From an uncultured Prochlorococcus sp. (GTDB lineage: Bacteria > Cyanobacteriota > Cyanobacteriia > PCC-6307 > Cyanobiaceae), in assembly GCA_902606505.1 (NCBI GenBank), contig CACLGU010000008.1, positions 1 through 43,623 of the forward strand: a stretch of DNA of 43,623 nucleotides. Reading direction: 5' to 3'. Below are positions 15,527-43,623 of this stretch, piece after piece (position 1 is the stretch's first letter; each line of letters starts with the position of its first letter). Both the position numbers and the translations under genes were made by a program. Below the pieces are notes generated by a model. It worked only from the letters and a program-made list of their open reading frames with translations, was not told the DNA's origin and searched no databases.

Positions 15527-17220
15527 TAAGATATTGCTATTGGAACTCTCCAGTCACTTCCTAATGATTGACTGCTTATTTTTAGAATTGGAGGAGCCTG
15601 TTTCCTTTTAAATTCTGCTTTTTTCATAAGTGAAATTATTTTTAAAATTAATTCTTTTTTATAACCATCTTCTTCAAGTTGTTTTAAATCTTTTTTCTCT
15701 TCAATAATTCCTTTAAGAATATTATCTAGGATGGAATAAGGTGGGAGAGAATCAGTATCTAATTGATTAGGCCCTAATTCAGCACTTGGAGCTTTTTTAC
15801 GTATATTTTCTCCAATTATATCTACATTCATTTCTAACATATATGATTTTCTGTGATTAATTGAATCTTTACTATCAAGCCAATTGCATAATTTAAAAAC
15901 ATTACTCTTATATAAATCCCCTATTACAGATAATCCTCCATTCATATCACCATAAAGTGTGCAATATCCTACGGCTAGTTCCGATTTATTACCTGTTGAA
16001 AGTAATAAATGCTTTTCTTGATTTGCTAAAGCCATCAGAAGCGTTCCTCTTATCCTTGACTGAATATTTTGATTTGTTATTTCAGCCATCTCGAAATCTA
16101 TGTTTTTTATGAAAGACTCTTCAAAAGAGGTCATCAAGTTTTCAATTGGGATGCTGTTGAAATTTATATTTAACCTTCTAGCTAAATCTTTTGCATCACT
16201 CTTTGAATGAGATGAGCTCCATTTAGACGGCATTGAGACGCAATAAATATTATCACTTCCAAGTGCAGCAGTTGCAATTGCTGAAACAAGTGCTGAATCA
16301 ATGCCACCGCTCAATCCAATTAAAGCTGTTTTAAATCCACATTTTTTTGCATAATCTTTAACACCAAGGACTAATGCATCAAAAATTGAGGACATCTCGG
16401 AGTTTTTAAATTTATTTTTTTCAGGTCTTGTTTGATCAATTTCCCAACTGGAGAGCTCTTCTGAAAAGGATTTAAGCTGCTTTATTTTTGATCCATTCTT
16501 ATCAAGGATAAAACTACTTCCATCAAAAATTAAATTATCATTTGCCCCAATCTGGTTTACATAAATCAGAGGTACTTGAAGATATTGTGCAGCAAAACTG
16601 GACACTTTTGATCTTAGCTCTAACTTTCTGAAAGTATATGGGGAGGCTGATAAATTTATTAAAATATTAACTTTTTTTTTCTTTAAATCAAGAATAGGAT
16701 TTTTTTTATGAATTCCTCTGCCTTCTATATCTTTGTTGACCCATAAATCCTCACATATAGTAAAGCCAAGTCGCCAAGTTTTATTTTTAATTTTTTTTTC
16801 TAATACGGAAACTTTTTCTTCTGATCTAAAGTATCTTTTCTCATCAAATACTTCGTAAGTAGGAAGAATAATTTTACGAGCAATTATTTTCCATTCACCG
16901 CCCTCAAGCAAAGCAATAGAGTTATAAAGGTTTGGAAAAAAAGAATCATTTATTATCTCAGCTATCCCTACTGTGATACTTAAGTTTCTATATTTTTTAT
17001 TTATATCTAAGGCTAATTGATCAATTATTTGATATTGATTTTTTATTAAATTTTTTTTAAAAAGTAAGTCATTTGCAGGATATCCCCATAATGACAATTC
17101 TGGAGTAAGAACAAAATCAGCAGAAATTGAGCAAGCTTTCGAAGCAATATATAGTATTTTTTTTGCATTGCCCTCTAAATCTCCAACTACTGGATTTATT
17201 TGAGCAAGTAAAAACTTCAT
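15523..17220 (-). CDS. nadE: Glutamine-dependent NAD+ synthetase
   Basis: 565 aa; N-terminal nitrilase-type amidotransferase domain and SGGIDSAL P-loop. Confidence 0.95.
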   Translation of the reverse strand: MKFLLAQINPVVGDLEGNAKKILYIASKACSISADFVLTPELSLWGYPANDLLFKKNLIKNQYQIIDQLALDINKKYRNLSITVGIAEIINDSFFPNLYNSIALLEGGEWKIIARKIILPTYEVFDEKRYFRSEEKVSVLEKKIKNKTWRLGFTICEDLWVNKDIEGRGIHKKNPILDLKKKKVNILINLSASPYTFRKLELRSKVSSFAAQYLQVPLIYVNQIGANDNLIFDGSSFILDKNGSKIKQLKSFSEELSSWEIDQTRPEKNKFKNSEMSSIFDALVLGVKDYAKKCGFKTALIGLSGGIDSALVSAIATAALGSDNIYCVSMPSKWSSSHSKSDAKDLARRLNINFNSIPIENLMTSFEESFIKNIDFEMAEITNQNIQSRIRGTLLMALANQEKHLLLSTGNKSELAVGYCTLYGDMNGGLSVIGDLYKSNVFKLCNWLDSKDSINHRKSYMLEMNVDIIGENIRKKAPSAELGPNQLDTDSLPPYSILDNILKGIIEEKKDLKQLEEDGYKKELILKIISLMKKAEFKRKQAPPILKISSQSLGSDWRVPIAISY

Positions 17221-17795
17221 TCAACTAATTTAGTAGATTCATATAAATTATTCTTCTTAACTATATCTATTAATGACGTTGGTAAATTAGAACAATTAAA
17301 ATTTAATCTAAAATTAGAACTTGAAGTTTCTGGGATTTTGATGGTTGAAATCTTAAATTTCACTTTGTAAGTCTCTAACATTTTAAGAGTATTTGATTCA
17401 ACAGGATATCCCTCTCTTAAAATTATATAAAAACTTACCTCCAAAATAATCTTGTCAAAATTTTTCCAGTAGAAAATATCTTTAATTAAATCACTCCCAA
17501 TAACAAAATCTAAATTATTAAATTCATAAATTTCTTTGCATTTTTTAATTGAATCTACTGCCCATTGGCTACTAACACTTTGATTAAATAAAATTTTAGG
17601 ATTATCTAAATCTTCAATAAGAGTTTTTAATAAATAGCTACGAATTGATATATCCTCTATGTGCTTTTTTGTGGGGTTATTGCTCACATAGCTAATAGTA
17701 AAAGCATAAATTTTTGATAATTCTTCAAGTATTTTTTTATGTCCAATGGTAGGTGGATCTGCACTAGTACCAAATAATGCAATGCTTTTTCCCAT
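17217..17795 (-). CDS. nadD: Nicotinate-nucleotide adenylyltransferase
   Basis: ALFGTSADPPTIGHKKIL HxGH-type motif; overlaps nadE. Confidence 0.92.
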   Translation of the reverse strand: MGKSIALFGTSADPPTIGHKKILEELSKIYAFTISYVSNNPTKKHIEDISIRSYLLKTLIEDLDNPKILFNQSVSSQWAVDSIKKCKEIYEFNNLDFVIGSDLIKDIFYWKNFDKIILEVSFYIILREGYPVESNTLKMLETYKVKFKISTIKIPETSSSNFRLNFNCSNLPTSLIDIVKKNNLYESTKLVE

Positions 17796-17803
17796 TTTAA
17801 GCT

Positions 17804-19045
17804 TTAAGGTAGAAAACTAATAAAGTTATTATTTAAATTTCTTTTTGTTAAATAAATATTTAAATGTTTAAAAATCTCTGGTTCATTAAAAATAATATTT
17901 TTTAGTATTATGTAAGGCTCTATAAACGAAGCTTTGCTTTTTTTAAATATCTCTTTGGCTGCTAATTTCCCAAGATTTTTTGTAGAATAAACTGCTATTG
18001 CTGCCTGAATAATTGCTATGGGCCCATAGGGTAATAATGATAGCCCGTTAGTGAAAGGTGCTGTAAGTAAAATTACTTTCCTAACAAGATTAAAAGATGT
18101 ATTTACTCCGACTTGAGTGAAGCCCAAAAATAAATTATTAATTGATATATTTTTGAATATTTTCCTAGTAGATTCACCCTTTAAATTTAAGCCGTAAATA
18201 TTACTTAATTCGCTAATCAATGCAGTATCTAGTGCAAGACTACCAGCAATATCGAAAAGAATAAAAGGATTAAGAGCTACCGTTGATGCCTTGATTGTCG
18301 AAAATTTACCAATAGTTGATTGCGCTAATTTCTGCCTTTTTTTCAATCTTTGCTCTTTTATCTGCAGAAACAATTTGTCAGCTGATTGAAGAGAATTTAG
18401 TGTTAAAAATATCTCACCATGTTGATTTATTATCTTTGTCATGTAATTTTTCAGATTGTTTTCATAATTAATAATTATGGGAATATTTAAATCTTTTGGA
18501 AGCTTAAACTTTATACTTTCTATTATTTGTTTTAATTCAACTTTATTGAAAAGATCGATTTTATTTAAAGTTACAACAATTTTTTTTCCATCTTTAATCA
18601 AGGAGTTGATTTCGCTTAATTCATTTCTATTTAAATCTCCTGAGACTATAAATAAAATAATATCTGAGTGATTTATACACGAGTAAACTTTATCTGGGAA
18701 TTCAATATCGCAGAAATCAAATCCTGGAGAATCTAGCAACTCTATACTTTTGAGTGTTTGATCTTTAATATTCCATTCTTTAGCTTGTATTTCTCTTGTG
18801 GTCCCATTTATTATATCCGTTTTGAATATATCTTCTTTTAATAAAGAATTTAAAACAGAGGATTTTCCCACGCCCGATTTACCATATGCGCCAATTCTTA
18901 TTTTTTTTTCTTTTAGCCTAAAAAGTTGTTGATTAAAGGAAATTATGTCTCTATTAAAAAAACTTTTTTCATAGTTGGTAAGATCAATAGTCTCCCACCA
19001 ATTTTGCAAAAGTAAATAATTTTTATGAATTTTCAATTCTTTCAT
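17804..19045 (-). CDS. GTP-binding protein (dynamin/Era-like GTPase, DUF697-like C-terminus)
   Basis: GAYGKSGVGKSSVLNSLL Walker A, DSPGF, TLNKIDLF. Confidence 0.85.
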   Translation of the reverse strand: MKELKIHKNYLLLQNWWETIDLTNYEKSFFNRDIISFNQQLFRLKEKKIRIGAYGKSGVGKSSVLNSLLKEDIFKTDIINGTTREIQAKEWNIKDQTLKSIELLDSPGFDFCDIEFPDKVYSCINHSDIILFIVSGDLNRNELSEINSLIKDGKKIVVTLNKIDLFNKVELKQIIESIKFKLPKDLNIPIIINYENNLKNYMTKIINQHGEIFLTLNSLQSADKLFLQIKEQRLKKRQKLAQSTIGKFSTIKASTVALNPFILFDIAGSLALDTALISELSNIYGLNLKGESTRKIFKNISINNLFLGFTQVGVNTSFNLVRKVILLTAPFTNGLSLLPYGPIAIIQAAIAVYSTKNLGKLAAKEIFKKSKASFIEPYIILKNIIFNEPEIFKHLNIYLTKRNLNNNFISFLP

Positions 19046-31825: not shown

Positions 31826-32284
31826 TTATAGTTTTTCTATTAGTATTTTTGCTACATCACCTTTGACAGGTAATATAGACAACCTATTTCCTTTTTTTAC
31901 AACTAATAACTCATCCTCATTAAATAAAATCTTTAGTTCAGATAAACTTAAAATTTTATCGAACTTGGATTTATATTTCACTTTTACACAATCCCATCTT
32001 GGATTATCAGGTTTCGATTTTGGATCAAAATATTTTGAATCTTTATCAAATTGCGTAGGATCAACAATATTTAAATCTATTACCTCCATAAGTCCTACAA
32101 TACCTGGAGGTTTACAGTTCGAATGATAGAAAAAAACCTTATCTCCTTTATTCATTTTTCTCATAAAATTTCGAGCCTGATAATTTCTTATGCCGTCCCA
32201 TAAAGTTACCCCGTCATTTTTTAAAGTATCTATGCTGTAAGCATCGGGCTCACTTTTCATAAGCCAGTAGTTTATTTCAGTCAT
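31826..32284 (-). CDS. EVE domain-containing protein
   Basis: 152 aa; INYWLMKSEPDAYSIDTL...WDGIRNYQARNFMR...VFFYHSNCKPPGIVG. Confidence 0.92.
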   Translation of the reverse strand: MTEINYWLMKSEPDAYSIDTLKNDGVTLWDGIRNYQARNFMRKMNKGDKVFFYHSNCKPPGIVGLMEVIDLNIVDPTQFDKDSKYFDPKSKPDNPRWDCVKVKYKSKFDKILSLSELKILFNEDELLVVKKGNRLSILPVKGDVAKILIEKL

Positions 32285-32534
32285 ATCAATAATTTAGAAG
32301 AAAATTACAATGTGTGAACGGTGTGTGAACAGAATACTAAAAACGTTCAAATCTAGGTTAATTATCCATCAAATTATCTATTTAGGAAAGTGATGGTTGG
32401 TATGGAGTAATTAATTCTCTAAATATTAATGTTTTTATCACTTAAATCAAAAAATAAATATTTAAAATCGAAAACAGAAATGATTTTCATTTTCATATTG
32501 GTGTAAATTTTATACATTAGGTAGTATTTTTTTT

Positions 32535-33317
32535 ATGAGTCAAGTCTGTTTAATATCTGGTTCGCCAGGATGCGGTAAGACAAATTGGATACTAAATACT
32601 TTTAAGAATTATTCTGGTAATTGTGGTTACTTACGTCTAGGAGGATATTCCGAAATTAATTTAGAGCAAGCAATAAATTCAAAAATTGATTTTGCTTTTT
32701 TGAAAGATCAAATTCCTAACTTATTAGACTTATCTATTTCAAACTCAATATCAGAGAAAGATAAAGAAAACATTTTAATTATTATTGAATTTCCACAATT
32801 TTTTACACCTAAATCTCAGGGTATTAATGGAGTTGATCTGAGAATTATTAATGAACTTGAAAAATATAATCTCCAGCCAAATAGATATCTTCATTTTGGT
32901 AGAGATCCAGAATTATCAATTAAAGATACTTTAGATTTTAGAGAAATTGAATCAATAAGCCTTGATCTTAAAAAGCATATTTGGGATCCTGCAAGCTTGA
33001 ATACTTTTTGGTTTGAATTAGTTAATGGTGCTTATGGGGATGTATATAGAGCAAAAGCATTAATGAACTTACCTGATGGGCGTTACATCTTGTTTAATTG
33101 GATAGTCAGTCAGCAAGGATCTCAATATCAAACATTAAACCAAGTTGCCCCTCTTAATGGAAGACCAGAAAGATGTTCTGAAATTGTTATACAAGGGAAA
33201 AATTTAAACTTCGAGTCAATAAAAGCAACGATTCATAATTGCCTTCTTAATGATGCTGTACTAGATCATCATCAAACTTCACTTAGAAATTCACAATTAC
33301 AAACTGCTCGCCGTTAA
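32535..33317 (+). CDS. CobW-like P-loop nucleotide-binding protein
   Basis: SGSPGCGKTNWIL Walker A at the N-terminus; upstream of two metallophosphoesterase-like genes. Confidence 0.7.
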   Translation: MSQVCLISGSPGCGKTNWILNTFKNYSGNCGYLRLGGYSEINLEQAINSKIDFAFLKDQIPNLLDLSISNSISEKDKENILIIIEFPQFFTPKSQGINGVDLRIINELEKYNLQPNRYLHFGRDPELSIKDTLDFREIESISLDLKKHIWDPASLNTFWFELVNGAYGDVYRAKALMNLPDGRYILFNWIVSQQGSQYQTLNQVAPLNGRPERCSEIVIQGKNLNFESIKATIHNCLLNDAVLDHHQTSLRNSQLQTARR

Positions 33318-33324
33318 CTTAAAA

Positions 33325-34140
33325 ATGAATCAAGCTGTCATCTCTTGTTTACATGCAAATCTACCTGCAGTAGAGGCTGTCTTAAAAGATATTGAACTCC
33401 AAGGAATTACAAATATTACCTGTCTTGGAGATCTAGTGGGTTATGGTCCTCAACCTAATGAGGTTATTGAGTTAATAAGAGATAAAGAAATTCCTACTTG
33501 TCAGGGATGTTGGGACGAAGACGTTGTTGATGGATTAGATGCTTGCGATTGTAGTTATCCTTCTCAGCTTGCTGAAAAAAGAGGTCATTTTGCTCATCAA
33601 TGGACTACAGATAAATTAACTACAGAAAATAAGGATTATCTAGCTAATCTACCCTACTCAATACGTAAAGATAAGTGTCTTTTTGTTCATGGTAGTCCTA
33701 ATAGTCAACATGAATATCTTCTACCCGATATGGATGCATTCGCAGCTCTTGAGAGAGTTGAAAATGCCAGAGCAGAGATTCTATTTTGTGGTCATACTCA
33801 CCAACCTTATATTCGCGAATTAGCAGATGGTTCAATTGCTGTAAAGATCAAAAATGCTGTTCCCAAAGATACTCAAGAAAAAGAAATTCAATTGCCGATG
33901 CGAAGAATAGTAAATGCAGGTTCAGTTGGAGAGCCAAGACATGGAGGAACTAAAGCTACTTATGTTGTTTATAACGATGTCACTAATGAAGTAAAAATTA
34001 GAGAAGTGGAATATGATATTGAACTTACTTGTAAAGCAATAATAGATGCCGGTCTTCCTCCGATTTTTGCATGGCGTTTAAAAAATGGATTCGAATTTGC
34101 AGAACAAGCTGAAGATGCATCTCATGTTTGTGAAAGATGA
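33325..34140 (+). CDS. Metallophosphoesterase family protein
   Basis: ISCLHANLPAVEAVL, CLGDLVGYGPQPNEVI, VHGSPN, FCGHTHQPY, NAGSVGEPR. Confidence 0.88.
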   Translation: MNQAVISCLHANLPAVEAVLKDIELQGITNITCLGDLVGYGPQPNEVIELIRDKEIPTCQGCWDEDVVDGLDACDCSYPSQLAEKRGHFAHQWTTDKLTTENKDYLANLPYSIRKDKCLFVHGSPNSQHEYLLPDMDAFAALERVENARAEILFCGHTHQPYIRELADGSIAVKIKNAVPKDTQEKEIQLPMRRIVNAGSVGEPRHGGTKATYVVYNDVTNEVKIREVEYDIELTCKAIIDAGLPPIFAWRLKNGFEFAEQAEDASHVCER

Positions 34141-34856
34141 TAGAACGCTGGGCACTCGTAAGTGGTCTTAAAGGGGATCTAGATACTTATGAACTTATTC
34201 AAAAAGATTTAAAAAAAACTCCTGGTAATATAACTCTTTTTGTTTTGGGGGATATGATAGGTCCTGAAAAAAACTGTAATAGGCTTCTCCATAGGTTAAT
34301 TAATCCAAAAAGTAATGATTTACAACCATGGTGCATATATGGTTGGTGGGAAGAACAAATCCTCTTGGAAAGTGGTTACCGTGGTGATCAAAGAGCTGAA
34401 GCTTTGAGAATAAATAAGGGTGAAGAAGTAGTTAAGTCTCTTACGAATGCTGTAGACAAATCATTTCTTGATTGGATAGCAGCACTTCAATTTGGATTTG
34501 TTGAACTTGATTGTGGTTTGATTCACGGAAGCTCAAAAGATGTTGGCGAAAATTTAACACTAGATACGCCGCCACTGACACTCCTTGATAGACTTACACG
34601 TCTTCAGGTAAACAGATTATTTACTGCAAGAAGTAAACAACAGTTTCACTTGGAATTGACAGAGGGGATTGTTAATTCTGAAGTAGAAGATTTAAATGGA
34701 AATCGTAAGAAAGAGCAGAAAGTTCCTCAAAAAGCTGTTATTGGTATTGGGGCAGGAAAAAATTATACTCTTTATGATGTCGGGACTGATAATACTCAAT
34801 TCGTACAAGCAGGATATAAAACAGAAAAAAGAATTAAGGGATTTGGAAGGCTTTAG
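34137..34856 (+). CDS. Metallophosphoesterase-like paralogue, degenerate active site
   Basis: Overlaps the previous gene (ATGA). Keeps VLGDMIGPEKNCNRL and LIHGSS but lacks DxH and GHxH. Confidence 0.75.
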   Translation: MIERWALVSGLKGDLDTYELIQKDLKKTPGNITLFVLGDMIGPEKNCNRLLHRLINPKSNDLQPWCIYGWWEEQILLESGYRGDQRAEALRINKGEEVVKSLTNAVDKSFLDWIAALQFGFVELDCGLIHGSSKDVGENLTLDTPPLTLLDRLTRLQVNRLFTARSKQQFHLELTEGIVNSEVEDLNGNRKKEQKVPQKAVIGIGAGKNYTLYDVGTDNTQFVQAGYKTEKRIKGFGRL

Positions 34857-35272
34857 TTTTTAGCATCAAGTACCCACTTCATTAGCCAGTAATTAATTTT
34901 AGTCATAGTCTATAATTTGCAGGAAATAGTGCTGCTGGTATGGTGCTGTTATGGCATTTTGTTAATTTTTGCGTAATTCAGCCAAATTCAAAGCATTTTA
35001 TTTAGTTTATCGAACAATATTAGTCGAAGAAAGTTCAAATTTATAAAAGTGTTAGCGGGTATGTGGGGTCCGCATGATGATTTTATATCGTTAAATATGA
35101 CTTTAAAATTTCTGTTGAAATTTTACGGATATAACTTTTTAATAGCTTCTTTTTGTTCTTGCTTTTTTATTTCTTTAGCATCTAAAACAGGGCAAGAGTT
35201 TTGATTTAGTGATGTGAGGAAAGTGCTTTTGTTGAATAGTTTGAACAGTAGTGGGAGTAGTAAGCGTTTCAA
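34801..35272 (+). repeat. Copy A of composite direct repeat flanking the hli island
   Basis: Shares GTACAAGCAGGATATAAA.CAGAAAAAAGAATTAAGGGATTTGGA and ..GCTGGTATGGTGCTG..ATGGCATTTTGTTAATTTTT.CGTAATTCAGCCAAATTCAAA.. with copy B. Confidence 0.9.
35123..35272 (-). CDS. Small protein (49 aa, TTG start), paralogue of 38770-38919
   Basis: LKRLLLPLLFKLFNKSTFLTSLNQNSCPVLDAKEIKKQEQKEAIKKLYP*; same length and conserved C-terminus as the copy-B ORF. Confidence 0.6.
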   Translation of the reverse strand: MKRLLLPLLFKLFNKSTFLTSLNQNSCPVLDAKEIKKQEQKEAIKKLYP

Positions 35273-35273
35273 T

Positions 35274-35534
35274 TTATTTAACTGGAGTTAGTGAATAACA
35301 AATGTCTTTATAACCATTTTCTTTATCCCACTCTTTCATCTCTGGAGTACTAGTAGCCGCAGCAAATCCCTCTAAATCCTTGACTTTAAGAATTAAGTGA
35401 CTTTTATGTTCATTTACCTTGATGAGTTCATATTCTTCGACATATTTATGTCCCTCCTCTTCGTGGAAATCAGCTACAAATTTATCGAAATCTTCAAAAG
35501 AACAATCAAAAGTAGAAATTATTAAGGTATTCAT
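35274..35534 (-). CDS. Conserved hypothetical protein (86 aa)
   Basis: Complete ORF MNTLIISTFDCSFEDFDKFVADFHEEEGHKYVEEYELI...; resembles small picocyanobacterial DUF proteins. Confidence 0.7.
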   Translation of the reverse strand: MNTLIISTFDCSFEDFDKFVADFHEEEGHKYVEEYELIKVNEHKSHLILKVKDLEGFAAATSTPEMKEWDKENGYKDICYSLTPVK

Positions 35535-35583
35535 AAAAAAGAGGGTTTTGTCCCTCTATGTTAGATTGACTGTCAATCAATTA
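35530..35583. repeat. Terminator-plus-palindrome repeat element, copy 1
   Basis: ttcataaaaaagagggttttgtccctctatgttagattgactgtcaatcaatta; gap-free match to 36740-36793. Confidence 0.8.
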
Positions 35584-35694
35584 ATAATTAATTATTTTTC
35601 TATTTTCATCTCTTTTATTTATTCTTAACCCAATGAACAGCATCCAAATAATTGCAAAGACTATTGGTAAGAAAACGATAGCAAGTTTAATCAT
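35581..35694 (-). CDS. Single-TM small protein (37 aa)
   Basis: MIKLAIVFLPIVFAIIWMLFIGLRINKRDENRKIINY*. Confidence 0.55.
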   Translation of the reverse strand: MIKLAIVFLPIVFAIIWMLFIGLRINKRDENRKIINY

Positions 35695-35975
35695 TTTAAA
35701 ATAGTATTATTTCAAAAATAATAACCCTTAAATAAATAATAAAATATAGGTACTTTATCTAAGAAAGTAGAGTCGAGGTTAGATCGACTGTAAATTGAAG
35801 TCTTATAAAACTACTTGACCAAAACCTTTAAAAATATTTTCGTGCAAATTCATAATAAAATACATTTATGTGACAGTTACGTATAGATTTAATATAAAAA
35901 TAAAAATATGCGACTGATTTCTTTACATTAGTTAATACTTGTGTTATATTAGTTTACATAATCATTCTTTTAATT

Positions 35976-36083
35976 ATGACACCTGAAGCAGAAAGATTTA
36001 ACGGTTGGGCGGCGATGCTCGGTTTCGTAGCAGCTGTTGGCGCATACGTAACAACTGGCCAAATTATTCCTGGTTGGTTCTAA
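35976..36083 (+). CDS. hli: High-light inducible protein (Hli), 35 aa
   Basis: MTPEAERFNGWAAMLGFVAAVGAYVTTGQIIPGWF*; ExxNGxxAMxG chlorophyll-binding-like motif and TGQIIPG tail. Confidence 0.93.
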   Translation: MTPEAERFNGWAAMLGFVAAVGAYVTTGQIIPGWF

Positions 36084-36223
36084 TGGCAAATTCAAAAACA
36101 AAAGCAATCGAAAAGGAAAAAGTTGTTGCAGAGACACTTAATGGCAGGTTTGCAATGCTTGGGTTAGTAGCTGCTATTGGCGCATATCTAACTACTGGAC
36201 AAATCATTCCTGGTTTCGTTTAA
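36083..36223 (+). CDS. hli: High-light inducible protein (Hli), 46 aa
   Basis: MANSKTKAIEKEKVVAETLNGRFAMLGLVAAIGAYLTTGQIIPGFV*; TAATG overlap with the preceding hli. The 36005 start in the ORF track is artefactual. Confidence 0.93.
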   Translation: MANSKTKAIEKEKVVAETLNGRFAMLGLVAAIGAYLTTGQIIPGFV

Positions 36224-36253
36224 GAAACAATTCAAAAATTACTTAATCAAATA

Positions 36254-36382
36254 ATGGAAAACTCAAAACCAACTTATTGGCAAAATGCCGAGAGAACCAA
36301 TGGAAGAATGGCAATGATGGGTTTATTCGCATTGGTTGTAAACTACGGTCTTTTTGGCTGGATCATCCCAGGTATTTTTTAA
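36254..36382 (+). CDS. hli: High-light inducible protein (Hli), 42 aa
   Basis: MENSKPTYWQNAERTNGRMAMMGLFALVVNYGLFGWIIPGIF*. Confidence 0.92.
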   Translation: MENSKPTYWQNAERTNGRMAMMGLFALVVNYGLFGWIIPGIF

Positions 36383-36383
36383 A

Positions 36384-36473
36384 ATGAATATAGACATTTT
36401 CTTAATATCTTTCTTTACATATCTATTAGTGCCAGTGCTAATGATAGCTAAAGGAAAAAAAGTAACTAATTAA
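36384..36473 (+). CDS. Single-TM micropeptide (29 aa) in the hli operon
   Basis: MNIDIFLISFFTYLLVPVLMIAKGKKVTN*, 1 nt after the hli stop codon. Confidence 0.6.
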   Translation: MNIDIFLISFFTYLLVPVLMIAKGKKVTN

Positions 36474-36477
36474 ACAA

Positions 36478-36657
36478 ATGAATTTAGGTATTCTTTTTAT
36501 CCTAGTTAATGCAACTGGATCAATAACTTTATCCGAATTGGATTGGATTGCAGATCATCAATCAGAATTTTCAAGGTTAGATATGGCACTAGTTTTAAAG
36601 ATTGGTCGACTTATGGATGAAGGGATAATAGAACTTGATTGTAAATTGCCAGCATAA
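36478..36657 (+). CDS. Small conserved hypothetical protein (59 aa) in the hli operon
   Basis: MNLGILFILVNATGSITLSELDWIADHQSEFSRLDMALVLKIGRLMDEGIIELDCKLPA*, followed by a terminator. Confidence 0.7.
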   Translation: MNLGILFILVNATGSITLSELDWIADHQSEFSRLDMALVLKIGRLMDEGIIELDCKLPA

Positions 36658-36682
36658 ATATTAAAAATTAAATCGTCATGAG

Positions 36683-36717
36683 AGCTTGCTTTTAGGGATA
36701 TAAGCAAGCTTTTTTTG
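36683..36717 (+). terminator. Rho-independent terminator ending the hli operon
   Basis: AGCTTGC-ttttagggatataa-GCAAGCT followed by TTTTTTT. Confidence 0.9.
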
Positions 36718-36739
36718 TTTTCTATCTGTGATGAGTGTG

Positions 36740-36793
36740 TTCATAAAAAAAGGAGCTACTGCCCCCTTATTTTAGATCGACTGTCAATCAATA
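36740..36793. repeat. Terminator-plus-palindrome repeat element, copy 2
   Basis: ttcataaaaaaaggagctactgcccccttattttagatcgactgtcaatcaata. Confidence 0.8.
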
Positions 36794-36803
36794 ACAGGCT
36801 ACA

Positions 36804-36935
36804 TTATTTCGCAGCTATCGAATTTATTTTTAACTTTGCTGTCTTATGTAATAGTCCAACAGCTTCTTTTCTTCCAGAAGCTTGTTGAGCCTGATGCATT
36901 AATTCAGCATATTTTTTTACGATTTTCTTTTCTAT
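36804..36935 (-). pseudogene. Small ORF with apparent lost start (ATA) or shorter ATG start at 36899
   Basis: Reads (I)EKKIVKKYAELMHQAQQASGRKEAVGLLHKTAKLKINSIAAK*; in-frame stop just upstream, no ATG/GTG/TTG at the expected start. Confidence 0.4.
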
Positions 36936-37200
36936 GGTTTAAATTAAATGAAGACCGTTTTTGAATCTCACAACTAGTGAATCACAACTTGAAGTAGATA
37001 AGGAATCAACGGTAAAACCTCAGAGTCAACAAATTGGAACGGGTTAACTCGTGTGTTAGATATATAATCAATTAGCTAAATACTTGTTGGTATCTAAGAT
37101 TACATTGTTTTCAAATCCTGATAACTTGTATACTCAATATAAAGCTTAAAATTAAGAATTTATAATAGCTTGACTAACTTGATTAAGTAAATTTAGAAAA

Positions 37201-37533
37201 TTGAGTTCCTTAATTATCACAAAGGCTGCTTCAAATGAACTGTTAAGGCAATCTATATATCGTGGTACACCTGGAAAAATATTTTTATATTTGCAACACG
37301 ATAATCTTGATGTTGGATGGATGTTTTTAAGAGTAAATGTTTGGAAAGAATCAGGAATTCCTATTGCTAGAACTGATGGCTTAACTATTTACGCCCTAGA
37401 TTCTCAAAAAAGTTTATTAGATGAACTTACTCTTGACCATTATCAAGATTTAACTGGAGGAGGATTTTTAATAAGTACTCCAAAAGGTGCTACAAAAAGT
37501 TCATGTGGCTCAGGTTTTAAATTTATAAAATAG
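37201..37533 (+). CDS. HesB/IscA-like (A-type carrier fold) protein lacking canonical Cys set
   Basis: Fold-like pattern ...GLTIYALDSQKSLLDELTLDHYQDLTGGGFLISTPKGATKSSCGSGFKF; TTG start. Confidence 0.65.
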   Translation: MSSLIITKAASNELLRQSIYRGTPGKIFLYLQHDNLDVGWMFLRVNVWKESGIPIARTDGLTIYALDSQKSLLDELTLDHYQDLTGGGFLISTPKGATKSSCGSGFKFIK

Positions 37534-37574
37534 CAGTTGCAATTTTAATAGGGTGCAAGTATAAAGTTTTTAAT

Positions 37575-37790
37575 TTATTCCCAAGTTTTCATATCAGAGA
37601 AGTCGCTCGCTATTGCATGTAGCATCCCTCCTACAAATGATCTAGGACAACCAAGTTTGTTAACTAAAACTTCTGATTGTTTTTTGATATCTTCCCATGT
37701 AGGTCTGATATCCTCATTTATTTGTTTAATGCTAGGTTTAAATTCTTCTGAATTATTCATATTTAAAGGTATTAACTTATTAAAATTCAA
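37575..37790 (-). CDS. Conserved hypothetical protein (about 61-71 aa)
   Basis: ORF with internal ATG (MNNSEEFKPSIKQINEDIRPTWEDIKKQSEVLVNKLGCPRSFVGGML...). Confidence 0.65.
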   Translation of the reverse strand: MNFNKLIPLNMNNSEEFKPSIKQINEDIRPTWEDIKKQSEVLVNKLGCPRSFVGGMLHAIASDFSDMKTWE

Positions 37791-37838
37791 AAGTTAGTAA
37801 AGAAAATCTCATTTATTTAAATAAATATTCAATAAAAA

Positions 37839-37994
37839 TTATAAAATAAATTCTTTAGAAATTATTCTAAGCTGATTCAAATTCAGATTATTTAAATAAT
37901 TATTTGCAATCAATTTTTCCTCATTAATTTCGAGATCTTTAATCTCAGAAATAATGCTATTAGATATTAAATCAATTAAATGTTCTTTATCCAT
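37839..37994 (-). CDS. Small hypothetical protein (51 aa)
   Basis: MDKEHLIDLISNSIISEIKDLEINEEKLIANNYLNNLNLNQLRIISKEFIL*. Confidence 0.5.
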   Translation of the reverse strand: MDKEHLIDLISNSIISEIKDLEINEEKLIANNYLNNLNLNQLRIISKEFIL

Positions 37995-38094
37995 GACTTA
38001 TATATAAACCCAAAACAAACATTAATTATTAAAAGTCTTCAACTCAACATATAAGTAAAAATACTCAGGTAAATAGAAAACTCATCGTACAAGC

Positions 38095-38140
38095 AGGATA
38101 TAAATCAGAAAAAAGAATTAAGGGATTTGGAATTCTTTAG
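38095..38140 (+). pseudogene. Fossil 3' end of the 34137-34856 metallophosphoesterase-like gene
   Basis: Reads VQAGYKSEKRIKGFGIL* versus VQAGYKTEKRIKGFGRL* at the gene's true end. Confidence 0.9.
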
Positions 38141-38416
38141 TTTTTAGCTATTGAATCAAGTTCCCTAAACTTGTTATGAATATATTTTATCGGTATAAGT
38201 GGTCTAAGGACTTGTCCTATTTGTAAGGACTTGAGCCTAGCGGTTTCAAGGTTAACTCCGCACTCCTGCACACGAGTACAAAAACCTTTTTTATTAATGA
38301 AGATTACTTCCAAGACACTTAGCTTGCTGCTTAATGTAGTTTTTGTGCTTTGTGTCTTTGTTATTTAAAGGCTATTCATCAAAAGAGATTAATAGTTTCC
38401 GGGTTTTATTACTTCG

Positions 38417-38444
38417 AACCGAACTCAATATCGGTTAGTTTTTT
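38417..38444 (+). terminator. Candidate Rho-independent terminator
   Basis: AACCGA-actcaata-TCGGTT-agTTTTTT. Confidence 0.65.
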
Positions 38445-38508
38445 AGTCTGTGAAAGTTTGAGTAAAGTTTGAGTAAAAAATTACGAGTCCTTGAGATCCC
38501 AGGTATCG

Positions 38509-38553
38509 CTAGTCGCGCTCACTTTTCATTAGCCAATAGTTAGGATTAGTCAT
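38509..38553 (-). pseudogene. Fossil 5' end of the EVE-domain gene
   Basis: Reads MTNPNYWLMKSERD* versus MTEINYWLMKSEPDAYS of the intact gene. Confidence 0.85.
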
Positions 38554-38919
38554 AGTCTTATATTTCGAGGGAATAGTGATGCTGGTATGGTGCTGGGATG
38601 GCATTTTGTTAATTTTTTCGTAATTCAGCCAAATTCAAATCATTTTATTTAGTTTATCGAAGATATCTGATCGAAGAAAGTTCACATTTATAAATGTGTT
38701 GGTGGGTATGTAGGGTTCACATGATGGTTTCATATCGTTAGATGTGACTTTAAAATTTCTGTTGAAATTTTACGGATATAACTTTCTAATAGCTTCTTTT
38801 TGTTCTTGCTTTTTTATATCCTTAGCATCATAAACTGGGCAATTATTCTGTTCAAGAGATGAGAAAAAAGTTCTCCTTTTAAAAGCTTTAAATATAGGAG
38901 TAAGTAAGAAACGTTTCAT
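38517..38919 (+). repeat. Copy B of composite direct repeat flanking the hli island
   Basis: Nearly collinear with 34868-35272. Confidence 0.9.
38770..38919 (-). CDS. Small protein (49 aa), paralogue of 35123-35272
   Basis: MKRFLLTPIFKAFKRRTFFSSLEQNNCPVYDAKDIKKQEQKEAIRKLYP*. Confidence 0.65.
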   Translation of the reverse strand: MKRFLLTPIFKAFKRRTFFSSLEQNNCPVYDAKDIKKQEQKEAIRKLYP

Positions 38920-38958
38920 TTAGTCTTTTATTTTTAAGTAGGGTTAATTCTTAATAGC

Positions 38959-39234
38959 TTATTCCTTTGATATTAAAATAAGTTGGTCAGGATCATAATT
39001 AGAAATCCAACTTAGTATTTTTTCTTCCTCTTCTAAAGTTCTAGTGCATGCAAAACCATATTTAGCTCTTACTTTTTCGGAAGCCTTATGCAAAGCTTGA
39101 ATAGCAAGAGACTTAAAATCTGAAATCTTTAAAGAATCTCCAGGTTTTAAATATTCAAGAATTACCGTAGAGGGAGAATATAGAGATTTTTTTTTACCAT
39201 CTGGTAAATTTAATTGAAAATTAATTTCAGGCAT
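38959..39234 (-). CDS. MSMEG_0570-type (NitG-like) protein
   Basis: 91 aa; MPEINFQLNLPDGKKKSLYSPSTVILEYLKPGD..., last gene of the nitrilase cluster. Confidence 0.8.
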   Translation of the reverse strand: MPEINFQLNLPDGKKKSLYSPSTVILEYLKPGDSLKISDFKSLAIQALHKASEKVRAKYGFACTRTLEEEEKILSWISNYDPDQLILISKE

Positions 39235-39292
39235 TTTTTTAGTATCCTTTGTTTTTTATGTAAAAATTTTAATTGATTGGAGCATTATTGAT

Positions 39293-40270
39293 TTAATTTA
39301 CATGAGTAAATCCAGTGAGAGGAGTATCCTCTTCCCAAAGTAATTCTGCTCCATTTGAATTTTTGATATAAACACTGCTATTACCATTTTCAAAGTTGCC
39401 GACATGACAGCAAATAAGCTCATCATATGGTCTTAAAGCATCCTTTAAAAAATTAGCTTTATCTGGTTTGATAGCACAAAGAAAACCATAGCTTGGGAAA
39501 CATGTAAGCCAGTCAAATTCTGGTATTCCTTTAGGGCGTTCAATTTTCTCAATATCAATTACAATTTTTTTCCCAGCAGATTCAGCAAACATAACTGCAG
39601 TGCCTGTGATACCTCCCATGCTAATGTCTTTGGCTGCGTGAATAATATTTTTTTTTGCAAGAAAGGGTATCAATGAAAAATGTTTTTTAAGTAAAGTTGC
39701 CGAGGCTTTTGTAGCCGCATCCCAGAACGGATAATCTTTAAAAAAATATCCATCTTTATTCGCTATTATCCATAATTCATCTCCAGAATCTGCGAACCTT
39801 GAAGAAAGAATAGGACCTTCTATAAGTCCAAGAATTGATACAGATAAAGCAAAATATGGACTTTTTTGATTTGAGTGACCACCTACCATTGGGACATTAA
39901 ATTTTTCACAGGCAAAACTCATACCAGAAAGAATTTTATTGTGTTTTTCTAAATCATTTTCACTCCAAATACTATTTACTAAAGCGATTGGCTTCCCTCC
40001 CATTGCAGTGATGTCACTGATATTAACTAATACGCTGCTCCAACCTGCGAACCACGGTTCCCTTTCTACTAAGATTGGACTAATTCCTTCACTCGCCATT
40101 AATAACAAGCCTGATTGTTGTGGAATTACTGCTGCATCATCTCCAAGCATTGCAGATTTACCAAGTTCGCTGAACGGGCTATGTGAGAAAGTTTTTGCAG
40201 CACTTTGAATATCTTTTTTAGATTCAATACCACTATGTGTTTGCAATTTTTTGATAAGTTTATCTAACAT
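39293..40270 (-). CDS. AIR synthase-related protein (sll0787/MSMEG_0567 C-terminal family)
   Basis: 325 aa; LGDDAAVIP, ITAMGGKPIALVNSIW, MVGGHSNQKSPYFALSVSILG, ISMGGITGTAVM. Confidence 0.88.
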   Translation of the reverse strand: MLDKLIKKLQTHSGIESKKDIQSAAKTFSHSPFSELGKSAMLGDDAAVIPQQSGLLLMASEGISPILVEREPWFAGWSSVLVNISDITAMGGKPIALVNSIWSENDLEKHNKILSGMSFACEKFNVPMVGGHSNQKSPYFALSVSILGLIEGPILSSRFADSGDELWIIANKDGYFFKDYPFWDAATKASATLLKKHFSLIPFLAKKNIIHAAKDISMGGITGTAVMFAESAGKKIVIDIEKIERPKGIPEFDWLTCFPSYGFLCAIKPDKANFLKDALRPYDELICCHVGNFENGNSSVYIKNSNGAELLWEEDTPLTGFTHVN

Positions 40271-40279
40271 TTTATGTGG

Positions 40280-40918
40280 TCACTTTTTCACTAAATACCA
40301 GCCTGGTCTGCTTAATTTTGAAGACTTGTAATAATTTAAGTCAGCTTCCATTAGGTGATGTTTTATTCCCTTGATTTCTATTTGTTTAATTGATTTCCAT
40401 TTGAGGCGTCTAAAAAAACTCACATTTTGGATCTGAACGGTTGCTAAAAATTGATCACAACCCCATCCATTTGCTGTAGTTACTGCTTTCCAGATCAATC
40501 CTTTTCCTATTTGATTGAATTTACGGAAAACAGGATCAACACCTAGTCTCCCCCCATACCATTGTCTTTTTTCTGTTTCGTAAATTCTCACTACGCCAAC
40601 GACTCTCTCTTTAGTGCCATATCCAGAATTCAATGAAACTATTGGGTATGCATCTTGATCAATTTCATCAATGTCAGATTCAGCAAAAATATTCTGTTCT
40701 TCGCAAAATATTCTCTTTCGTAATTCCCAGTAATCTTTGATAAGGGGAGAATCATCTTCAAGCAAATGAAACGAAAAGTTTTCTGAATTTGAACTTGGAG
40801 ATATCATAAAATCTTCTTCTTCAATTCCAATGCCTGATCTTACGGAGGGTGTGAAATAGTAAGGCGCAGAGCTAAAGCTTCTGCCGATATCCTCACTTGA
40901 GGGGTCAATAAAAAACAT
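40280..40918 (-). CDS. GNAT-type acetyltransferase (MSMEG_0567 N-terminal/sll0786 family)
   Basis: 212 aa; VVGVVRIYETEKRQWYGGRLGVDPVFRKFNQIGKGLI, directly upstream of the AIR synthase-like gene. Confidence 0.85.
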   Translation of the reverse strand: MFFIDPSSEDIGRSFSSAPYYFTPSVRSGIGIEEEDFMISPSSNSENFSFHLLEDDSPLIKDYWELRKRIFCEEQNIFAESDIDEIDQDAYPIVSLNSGYGTKERVVGVVRIYETEKRQWYGGRLGVDPVFRKFNQIGKGLIWKAVTTANGWGCDQFLATVQIQNVSFFRRLKWKSIKQIEIKGIKHHLMEADLNYYKSSKLSRPGWYLVKK

Positions 40919-40923
40919 AATAT

Positions 40924-42012
40924 TTAACTCTCAAATAGTGATAAAGCTGAGCAGGCACCGCATTTGGCACAACCAGCGGACATTTCATCAGATTTTATGT
41001 TGCCTTCATTTAGTAATTGCGAGACTGATTGATAAATGTCAATCATGAAATCAGTGCTTGGGGAGGGGTGATGTTCCAGAGGCGTTCCTGCTATTGGCAC
41101 AAATGGAACTATGAAAGGATAAACTCCTATAGATATCAATTTTTTACTGCAATTTATTAGGGATTCTTTGCTATCCCCTAGTCCAGCTAATAAATATGTA
41201 GAAACTTCTCCTCTGCCGAACACTGAGACACTTTCTTCGAAAGCTTTATAGTATCTTTCAAGAGAAATTTCAGATTTGCCTGGAAGAATTTTTTTTCTTA
41301 TCTTCTCCTCCACAACCTCTAAATGCATACCTAAACTATCAACGCCTGAGTCTTTCATTTTTCTAAACCAAATTGGATTATCAGGCGGTTCGCATTGACC
41401 TTGGATTGGAATATCAACTTTAGCCTTAACAGCCTTTGCTGCTTCTGCCATTATTCTTGCTCCCCTATCACTACTGTTTGGGGTCCCTGTTGTCATTACT
41501 AATTGCTTTATTCCATCAAGTCTTACAGCTGCTTCTGCAACTTCAGCTATTTGATCTGGAGTTTTTCTTACGATGGTTTGTTCGTTTTCCAAAGATTGCT
41601 CTATTGCACAAAACTGGCAAGATTCTTCTCTATGTTTGAAACGAATACATTTTTGAAGAATAGTTGTTGCTAATACATCCTTGCTATGAAGAAGAGCAAT
41701 CGACTTATAAGGTATACCATCTTTTGTTTTTAAAGAATAAAAACTTGGTTCTTTTGTGGTCGATAATTCCTTGATATTTGAATCTTCACTATTTTGGAGA
41801 ATAAATTGTCCGTCAGGCTCCTCTGAAAGTTGATAATTAGATTTTTTAGATACGTGATTATAAACTGGAACCATTACAGTCTTCCCTTTAATTGTTAAAG
41901 CTCTATGATCTGATGGACCAGCGCCTCCTTTTCTACCCCTGTTGCCCTTTTTAGGCGTGGAACTTATCCCATTAACTTGTAACTCAGTAATAATTTTGCC
42001 TAGTTCAGACAT
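40924..42012 (-). CDS. Radical SAM protein (MSMEG_0568 family)
   Basis: 362 aa; KCIRFKHREESCQFCAIEQ cluster-binding region, C-terminal GCAKCGACSA. Confidence 0.9.
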   Translation of the reverse strand: MSELGKIITELQVNGISSTPKKGNRGRKGGAGPSDHRALTIKGKTVMVPVYNHVSKKSNYQLSEEPDGQFILQNSEDSNIKELSTTKEPSFYSLKTKDGIPYKSIALLHSKDVLATTILQKCIRFKHREESCQFCAIEQSLENEQTIVRKTPDQIAEVAEAAVRLDGIKQLVMTTGTPNSSDRGARIMAEAAKAVKAKVDIPIQGQCEPPDNPIWFRKMKDSGVDSLGMHLEVVEEKIRKKILPGKSEISLERYYKAFEESVSVFGRGEVSTYLLAGLGDSKESLINCSKKLISIGVYPFIVPFVPIAGTPLEHHPSPSTDFMIDIYQSVSQLLNEGNIKSDEMSAGCAKCGACSALSLFES

Positions 42013-42997
42013 GATTGATTTCCTCTAAATAGTCTTTTGTAGTTAGATCTTTTGGTATGAAATCTTTTCCATTTGATATCTCAAATACCTTGTTGGGGGA
42101 TGTATTTAGTTTTAGAGAAAGAAGATCTGGACGACTGTAGTGACCAACACTATCCATCATTCTTTTCCTTTTTGTAATAAGCGATAAATTAATTTCTGCT
42201 ATGGCTAATCCTTCTCCTTCATCAAGTGGTCCTGCCAAATACTTACCTTCTGGACTGATAATTGCTGTGTGACATCCTCCCTGAAATGCTTTATGAAGAT
42301 TGGTTTCGGACGTTATTTTTTTATAATCTTCTGGATCTAGCCAACCTGTTGAGCAAATGACAAAACAGCCTGCTTCTAAAGCGTGATGTCTCATTGTGAC
42401 TGCAGTTTGCTCGGTAAATATTGGACCAACTAATGAACCTGGAAATTGAGCACAATGTATTTGTTCCCCTTTAGCCATAAGGGCAAATCTAGCTAAAGGG
42501 TTATAGTGCTCCCAACAAGCCAAAGATCCTATCTTGCCAAGTTGAGTATCTACAACTTCTAAACCAGAACCATCTCCTTGACCCCAAATCATTCTTTCGT
42601 GAAAAGTAGGAGTTATTTTTCTTCTTTTTAGAACAATTTCACCTTTTTCGTTGAAAAGAATTTGAGTATTGTACAAACTTCCACCATCAAGTTCATTAAC
42701 TCCTAAAAGAACTTGGATGTTATATTTTTTAGCTGATTTCCCAACTATTTCTGTAACTGGACCCGGGACTTCTACTGCTTGCTCATATAGCTTCATATGA
42801 GATTTACCCATGAGAACTGGCGGCTCAACAAATGAAAAATATGGGTAGTAAGGAAGGAATGTTTCGGGAAAGACTATCAATTTTACATTTTTTGTAGCTG
42901 CTTCTTGAATCTTTAAAAGGACTTTATTCAATGATTCATTTAAGTCAAAGAGTACAGGTCTAACTTGAGCAGCAGCTACTTTAAATGTTTTAGTCAT
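42005..42997 (-). CDS. Nitrilase (Nit6803 / Nit1 type)
   Basis: 330 aa; FPETFLPYYPYFSF (Glu), KRRKITPTFHERMIWGQGDG (Lys), GSLACWEHYNPLARFALMA (Cys). Confidence 0.95.
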   Translation of the reverse strand: MTKTFKVAAAQVRPVLFDLNESLNKVLLKIQEAATKNVKLIVFPETFLPYYPYFSFVEPPVLMGKSHMKLYEQAVEVPGPVTEIVGKSAKKYNIQVLLGVNELDGGSLYNTQILFNEKGEIVLKRRKITPTFHERMIWGQGDGSGLEVVDTQLGKIGSLACWEHYNPLARFALMAKGEQIHCAQFPGSLVGPIFTEQTAVTMRHHALEAGCFVICSTGWLDPEDYKKITSETNLHKAFQGGCHTAIISPEGKYLAGPLDEGEGLAIAEINLSLITKRKRMMDSVGHYSRPDLLSLKLNTSPNKVFEISNGKDFIPKDLTTKDYLEEINHV

Positions 42998-43015
42998 TTT
43001 CTTAGAGCTTATGTC

Positions 43016-43498
43016 TTACAGAGTCCAAGTATCCAAAATAAATGCTCCTTCTTTGCGATGCATTAACACGATATCGAGAACATCTAAAGGACTTATTGGT
43101 TTTATCCCTGGAGTAAGAGCTCCTTCCCCATGCCCGTACAAAGCTTGTAACGCAAATCGACAAGCATAAACCTTACCGCCTTGACCCATAAATTTTTCTA
43201 AGCGAGCATTAAAATTTAAATGACCATCAAATGCTGCATCTCCAAGCTTTGGAAAGCCTCTTTGTAGTCCTAGAGTTACTCCTGGACCATATAGCAATAT
43301 TGAAGTTTCAAAACCCTTATTTATAAGACGACTAGCTTGTAAAAGATTAACAAGACCAATAGACCCCTCAAAAGCAACAGTATGAAAAGTTAGTAAGGCT
43401 TTCTCACTTGGTTCGGCTTTAACATCTGGGAATACTTTTTCTTCATAATCAACTAAGAATTCTCCAGGCTGATTAGCGGGACGAGTTACAGATGGCAT
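43016..43498 (-). CDS. MSMEG_0572/sll0783-family protein
   Basis: 160 aa; first gene of the cluster, ...[53 protein letters not shown]... Confidence 0.85.
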
Positions 43499-43623
43499 GA
43501 AATTTTTTTAAAAAACTTTTGATATTTTCTGATTTGATTTCCCAAAAAGAATGTAACCGATATCACTAAATTGATTAACTTAAGATTTCAGATCAAAAAA
43601 ACTTTTTAGTGAGTTTTATAACA

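Follow-up and report, generated by a model that had tools for sequence, protein, structure and literature searches.

How did an island of hli genes in Prochlorococcus come to lie between two diverged copies of the same DNA? In the genomic islands of this genus, the genes for light, phosphorus and nitrogen vary from one ecotype to another. Our analysis considered a window of 43,623 nucleotides (the whole stretch of DNA that was analysed) and the draft host genome to which it belongs (1.25 Mb, 69 contigs). The diverged direct repeats are real: 34801–34864 matches 38085–38148 (64 nt at 95%) and 34878–35177 matches 38525–38824 (300 nt at 88%). As the second copy was recovered from the window's own genome with E = 1e-112, chance can be excluded. 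The preliminary description had given the order within each copy correctly, namely the 3' end of the second metallophosphoesterase-like gene (MPE2), a 5' fossil of the EVE gene, a noncoding block and a 49-aa ORF on the minus strand, and it had also correctly placed three hli ORFs between copy A and copy B. Its limits for copy A (34801–35272) were kept, while copy B starts at 38085 and not at 38095. An additional 364 bp (38149–38512), which copy A lacks, separates the MPE2 fragment from the EVE fossil in copy B, and the long repeat (D1) begins in both copies with the first base of an att-like core (34878 and 38525). The 42-nt EVE 5' fragment is found at 32244 (in the intact gene, 32244–32285), 34866 and 38513, that is, at three sites instead of the two counted earlier, with the repeats themselves being two of these. 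A structured RNA as the repeated block was rejected, as no Rfam family exceeded the cut-off in the window region. The features to which we refer are as follows, with the strand given where one was assigned:

31826–32284, minus: intact EVE-domain gene, the putative integration target (PF01878, E = 5.6e-54; present in 127/151 genus genomes)
32256–32266: att-like core within EVE, TTCATAAGCCA, differing from the consensus at one position
32286–34868, plus: cassette 1, about 2,583 bp, without right-hand arms; genes CobW-like (32535–33317), metallophosphoesterase (MPE1, 33325–34140) and 239-aa MPE-like (MPE2, 34137–34856)
32311–32330: left-end arm-type tandem, TGTGTGAAC twice, period 11
34801–34864, plus: 3' end of the 239-aa MPE-like gene, copy A repeat
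34866–34907: EVE 5' fossil, copy A, with core TTCATTAGCCA at 34878–34888
34908–38524: cassette 2, with the hli-to-right-end gene order of L123/L124 apart from deleted cargo; noncoding block, 49-aa ORF, 86-aa ORF, three hli genes, P59, P110, P61, P51, MPE2 scar, integrase fossil, right arms
34933–34954: left-end arms of cassette 2, TGCTGGTATGG/TGCTGTTATGG
35123–35272, minus: 49-aa ORF, copy A
35976–36083, 36084–36223 and 36254–36382, plus: the three hli genes
38077–38080: junction, with an overlap of 4 bp, at which 2,465 bp of L123 are deleted
38085–38148, plus: last 64 bp of the MPE2 region, copy B, a putative scar of cargo deletion
38382–38450, minus: fossil of a tyrosine recombinase C-terminus, 23 codons with two in-frame stops (tblastn, profile search)
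38453–38475: right-end arm-type tandem, AAAGTTTGAGT twice, period 11
38513–38554: EVE 5' fossil, copy B, with core at 38525–38535
38555–43623: cassette 3, cut by the window end, with nitrogen-starvation (Nit1C-type) genes at 38959–42012
38580–38601: left-end arms of cassette 3, TGCTGGTATGG/TGCTGGGATGG
38770–38919, minus: 49-aa ORF, copy B

We consider it very probable, judging from the sequence comparisons below, that the repeats arose by successive site-specific insertions near the EVE start of integrative elements with a divergent tyrosine recombinase. Such elements would insert into codons near the start of EVE, with recombination taking place within the 11-bp core, and with each newcomer EVE would gain a new start codon, together with about nine N-terminal codons and the upstream region. 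In this way the inserting elements apparently regenerate the EVE 5' end, and the old 5' end would be pushed outward to become a fossil beside the older array. New elements would enter at the EVE-proximal end. Many cassettes would have lost their integrase by deletion and kept their att-like sites, leaving a tandem array of one orientation; in the window, the outcome would be three cassettes with CobW-MPE1-MPE2 (cassette 1), hli (cassette 2) and nitrogen-starvation genes (cassette 3). Instead of a single duplication, we see two successive cassettes in an array. The proposal of an insertion that reuses a gene end stands, but the target would be the EVE 5' end and not the metallophosphoesterase 3' end.

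We collected the sequence upstream of EVE in 60 members of the genus and scanned a profile of the 39-bp EVE 5' end over 61 loci (the 60 relatives and the window). Of the 171 profile sites, 60 belong to intact EVE genes. The other 111 are extra copies, which lie on the EVE strand and on the 5' side of the gene, with none on the opposite strand. At least one extra site was found in 49/60 EVE loci and nine in one locus, and a stretch of 20 kb can contain as many as nine. In five complete genomes, each scanned over about 100 kb, the sites are confined to the 5' side of EVE. Two observations count against the model. Two right ends lie away from EVE and have no left partner (L153, L154), and the decay of fossils with distance from EVE, which the order of insertion would predict, is no more than a weak trend (p = 0.056). 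The comparison with relatives lacking the island, suggested in the preliminary description, was run and favours insertion: in L074, L067 and L104, EVE is directly fused to a single block with the 49-aa ORF. L074 and L067 have neither cassette 1 nor cassette 2 of the window, and their EVE runs directly into the copy B block and the nitrogen-starvation genes (92–93% over 1.15 kb). The latter genes match TIGR04042, TIGR04049, TIGR04045 and TIGR04043, and they themselves form a cassette of about 6.48 kb; in L067, L077, L081 and L112, the segment spans about 6.45–6.48 kb between two EVE-5' sites.

In the column profile, which covers 60 EVE genes and 109 fossils, the core is nearly invariant. On its left side, sequence is conserved among the EVE genes but variable among the fossils; on its right side, both groups vary equally. 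A crossover inside the core, with the rightward DNA always derived from the element, is expected to produce such a pattern, and the element would thereby supply the start codon, the following codons and the upstream region of EVE. Exact 8-mer tandem repeats with a period of 11 were observed to the left of 76/112 fossils and to the right of 79/171 sites, against a background of 0.26% of tiles; period 11 accounts for 155 cases and any other period from 8 to 20 for 5 or fewer. These repeats look like integrase arm sites and are treated here as putative arms. Their sequence classes are many, including TGCTGGTATG, GTTTGAGTAA, TGCTAGAAT, GTGTGGACG and others. After removal of near-duplicates, arms at both ends of one segment match more often than in shuffled pairings (11 observed vs 3.95 expected, p = 0.0005). 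Matching arms are present in 5/5 segments that have a full-length or nearly full-length integrase and two readable ends (L065, L096, L102, L122 and L165), and arms are unmatched in most integrase-less segments. The unmatched arms and the lack of right arms in cassette 1 indicate that part of the array was moved or changed by other means. A segment of the same length as cassette 1 adjoins EVE in L069, L076, L078, L080, L084 and L085, and the cassette is 99.0–99.7% identical in nucleotides to that of seven other genomes whose EVE genes are 85–93% identical to that of the window. As the cassette identity is far above that of the adjacent EVE, cassette 1 has spread recently. It lacks right arms, and homologous recombination is the probable means by which it moved. 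Integrase-less cassettes in general would travel in cis or by homologous recombination.

A divergent putative tyrosine recombinase of about 525 aa lies beside an EVE-5' site in L065, L096, L102, L122, L163–L169 and L171 (L163, L164, L167 and L168 duplicate L096, L065, L122 and L102, respectively; the L102 copy is frameshifted). In every locus with a readable flank, it is found about 60–140 bp from the core, and in other GTDB genera, arms and an EVE core precede the recombinase start in 10/10 loci with readable flanks. When 300 genomes of the family were searched with a profile, relatives were recovered in 77 genomes from 25/59 genera. The 61 island loci, with their 111 fossils, contain only four full-length or nearly full-length recombinases, one of them frameshifted. 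Over the N-terminal 90 residues, identity is 82–88% within the TGCTGGTATG arm class but 38–42% between classes; over the C-terminal part of the same five proteins, it is 80–91% (80–86% for the C-terminal half between L163–L165 and L166/L167). Since the N-terminal residues follow the arm class, as an arm-binding domain is expected to do, this region would be a candidate arm-binding domain. Tyrosine recombinases usually carry a G-L-R motif; here SGMSPEE stands in its place and some textbook catalytic residues are missing. The catalytic motif is atypical, so that recombinase activity is putative; the protein would catalyze the insertion reaction. Its tentative assignment to the tyrosine recombinases draws on a phrog_1 integrase match of one member (E = 3e-14), a PF00589 match (about 1e-3) below the cut-off, a profile similarity to other integrases of the genus (probability 97) and a fold match of the core-binding part. 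A PDB sequence search with the recombinase returned no match, and Foldseek with the core-binding part gave 3nrw at TM 0.79 but E = 0.39. The structure model is poor (pLDDT 57), too poor for a claim on the fold of the catalytic part, which was dropped. A viral origin was rejected, as no relatives were found in viral_contigs or phage records. When known integrases of the genus were searched for inside the island, the sole match, a fragment of 88% identity in L082, lay at a distance from EVE.

The window was described as having no visible integrase, but copy B contains a trace of one, although it is no more than a fossil. The last 23 codons were recovered at 38382–38450 on the minus strand by tblastn (E = 3e-8) and independently by profile search (E = 1.8e-4). 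As eleven fossil sites are preceded by this 23-codon remnant, it probably descends from one old deletion derivative. The other part of copy B is explained by alignment with L123: window positions 37807–38080 and 38077–38160 match L123 2900–3173 and 5639–5724, a gap showing that 2,465 bp are missing from the window. The right part of cassette 2 has the L123 order P110-P61-P51-CobW-MPE1-MPE2-right-end, minus these 2,465 bp, and the repeated MPE2 3' end in copy B is, as read from this alignment, the scar of a cargo deletion.

This bears directly on the version of the preliminary description, in which an element targets and regenerates the metallophosphoesterase 3' end. The last 64 bp of this gene are indeed repeated at 95%, as such an element would predict. 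However, an intact CobW-MPE1-MPE2 lies at the exact gap position of cassette 2 in L123, L124, L070 and L081, the MPE fragment in copy A has no flanking arms, and any MPE match is limited to 39/151 genomes, yet the majority, which lack the gene, carry the EVE array. The MPE2 3' end as a target was rejected on the evidence of the 2,465-bp deletion, and we regard this version as extremely improbable. Unequal homologous recombination between short repeats, which would give a segmental duplication with no site-specific enzyme, draws some support from the long homologous blocks on either side of the cassettes, from the missing right arms of cassette 1 and from the unmatched arms of many segments; such recombination may well reshuffle cassettes in an existing array. 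As the origin of the repeats it is nonetheless quite improbable, since it does not predict the different cargo between the repeats, and an 11-bp core with a sharp left boundary, arms of period 11, an integrase that always adjoins the core and a strict single orientation also speak against it.

It may also be asked whether the elements are tycheposons whose tRNA target was replaced or lost, given the same host genus, the cargo-bearing islands, the tyrosine recombinase and a distant profile similarity (hhalign probability 97) to further long recombinases of Prochlorococcus. We hold this to be unlikely, as the core is EVE coding sequence and as the recombinase shows no similarity to the set A4 recombinases, 3/5 of which are near a tRNA gene. 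The absence of tRNA from the window, stated in the preliminary description, agrees with our scan, which found none in the window and none in 58 island loci, so that the EVE elements lack the tRNA target of tycheposons there. When wider stretches were scanned, the sole tRNA was a tRNA-Val in L173, about 61 kb from EVE; a tRNA or tmRNA target was rejected, none being found in the island.

Insertion at the EVE 5' end has counterparts in known systems. Tandem ssrA islands of Dehalococcoides comprise over a dozen direct repeats and, like the arrays here, repeat the target-gene end on one side of the gene, carry strain-specific cargo and have an integration module in some islands and not in others; they use a tmRNA 3' end and a serine recombinase, however, and not a protein-gene 5' end, a tyrosine recombinase and varied arm sites (PMC3146451). 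The dusA islands, too, have tyrosine recombinases of a family specific to a single protein-gene 5' end, a replacement 5' end brought by the element and semiconserved att repeats, but differ in target and host (Proteobacteria) and are not described as long integrase-less arrays; the recombinases are likened here by description (PMC4482086). In CIME accretion, decayed att-flanked elements without integrase are stacked in tandem by later integration (PMC5704250). Units of this kind, att-flanked and without integrase, were found here in tandem at one target, and a difference lies in the size of the EVE arrays, with the nine extra sites noted above. The array seems to grow as cis-mobilizable islands do when they are stacked by accretion, here with the 5' end of a protein gene as the site. 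In the additive flexible genomic islands of small-genome aquatic bacteria, as here, copies of a target-gene end stand between the cassettes, but the end is a tRNA 3' end and not the EVE 5' end (PMC10872708). Tycheposons, as outlined in the same source, likewise combine a Prochlorococcus host, cargo, a tyrosine recombinase and remodelled genomic islands, and are set apart by their description as integrating at tRNA genes and not in EVE (PMC10872708). In the literature searched, we found no paper on EVE as an integration site in Prochlorococcus. It is reasonably likely that these elements form an undescribed family across Cyanobiaceae, dedicated to the EVE 5' end, whose arm specificity was switched repeatedly as the N-terminal domain of the recombinase diverged, and which builds the tRNA-free island 5 of Prochlorococcus and resets the promoter and N-terminus of EVE with every insertion. 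While tRNA-gene integration explains some islands, it does not explain an island without tRNA, for which insertion into EVE offers an explanation. Given a concrete att core, arm sites and a recombinase, it becomes possible to test how island 5 grows, and the clusters of hli, phoX and nitrogen-starvation genes are identified as exchangeable cassettes.

The name island 5 refers to MED4, one of the five complete genomes scanned, in whose islands a 48-bp repeat was reportedly noted by Coleman et al. in 2006. Yfr20 and nearby hli genes were placed in MED4 genomic island 5 (PMC2518516). In our analysis, Yfr20 lies at exactly its published position (1336435–1336523) and the EVE gene at 1367679, about 31 kb away, and we infer from this that the studied region corresponds to that island. 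In the window, a weak Yfr20-like match is found at 36590–36706.

In the window, a block lying just past the 3' end of the integrase, on its downstream side (38205-38390), retains 86-98% identity across about 23 loci and is more strongly conserved than the integrase remnant itself. It may encode either a small protein, with INKKGFCTRVQERGVNLETARLKS conserved on the minus strand, or an RNA. A Yfr20-like RNA match was found at 36590-36706, where it overlaps P59, an ORF of the hli cassette; it has a conserved 3' hairpin and scored 27.8 bits, under the Rfam cut-off of 44.

Two features of the window recur in other genomes:
32358-32405, el48 repeat, with 126 sites in related loci
38555-43623, nitrogen-starvation cassette, also in L067, L077, L081 and L112

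The el48 repeat (ATTATCCATCAAAGTTTCTATTTAGGAAAGTGATGGGTGGTATGG) lies just inside many element left ends, in a single orientation throughout, and may correspond to the 48-bp island repeat reported in the literature. The first residues of the EVE protein appear to vary with the left end of the neighbouring element, for example in L113, L114 and L117 as compared with the window (MTEINYWLMK, MTEENFWLMK, MPQQEPSYWLMK). Element right ends, with arms and core as far as TTCAT, are also found distant from EVE (L153:10161-10238 and L154:9406-9482). A left partner was sought for both and none was found; these lone ends would reflect secondary integration or translocation.

The nitrogen-starvation cluster, of the MSMEG_0567-0570/Nit1C type, acts as a ~6.48-kb cassette with EVE-5' sites at its bounds. 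In L065, an intact, integrase-carrying element has a PhoX alkaline phosphatase gene (16735-18537; PF05787, E=8e-170) as cargo, which ties the insertion mechanism to phosphorus acquisition. In a different clade, L136 (G105 contig 14) contains a diverged cluster of CobW-like and metallophosphoesterase genes near a tRNA-Pro, accompanied by a different, 396-aa integrase; the L082 island holds a fragment of this integrase at 88% identity.
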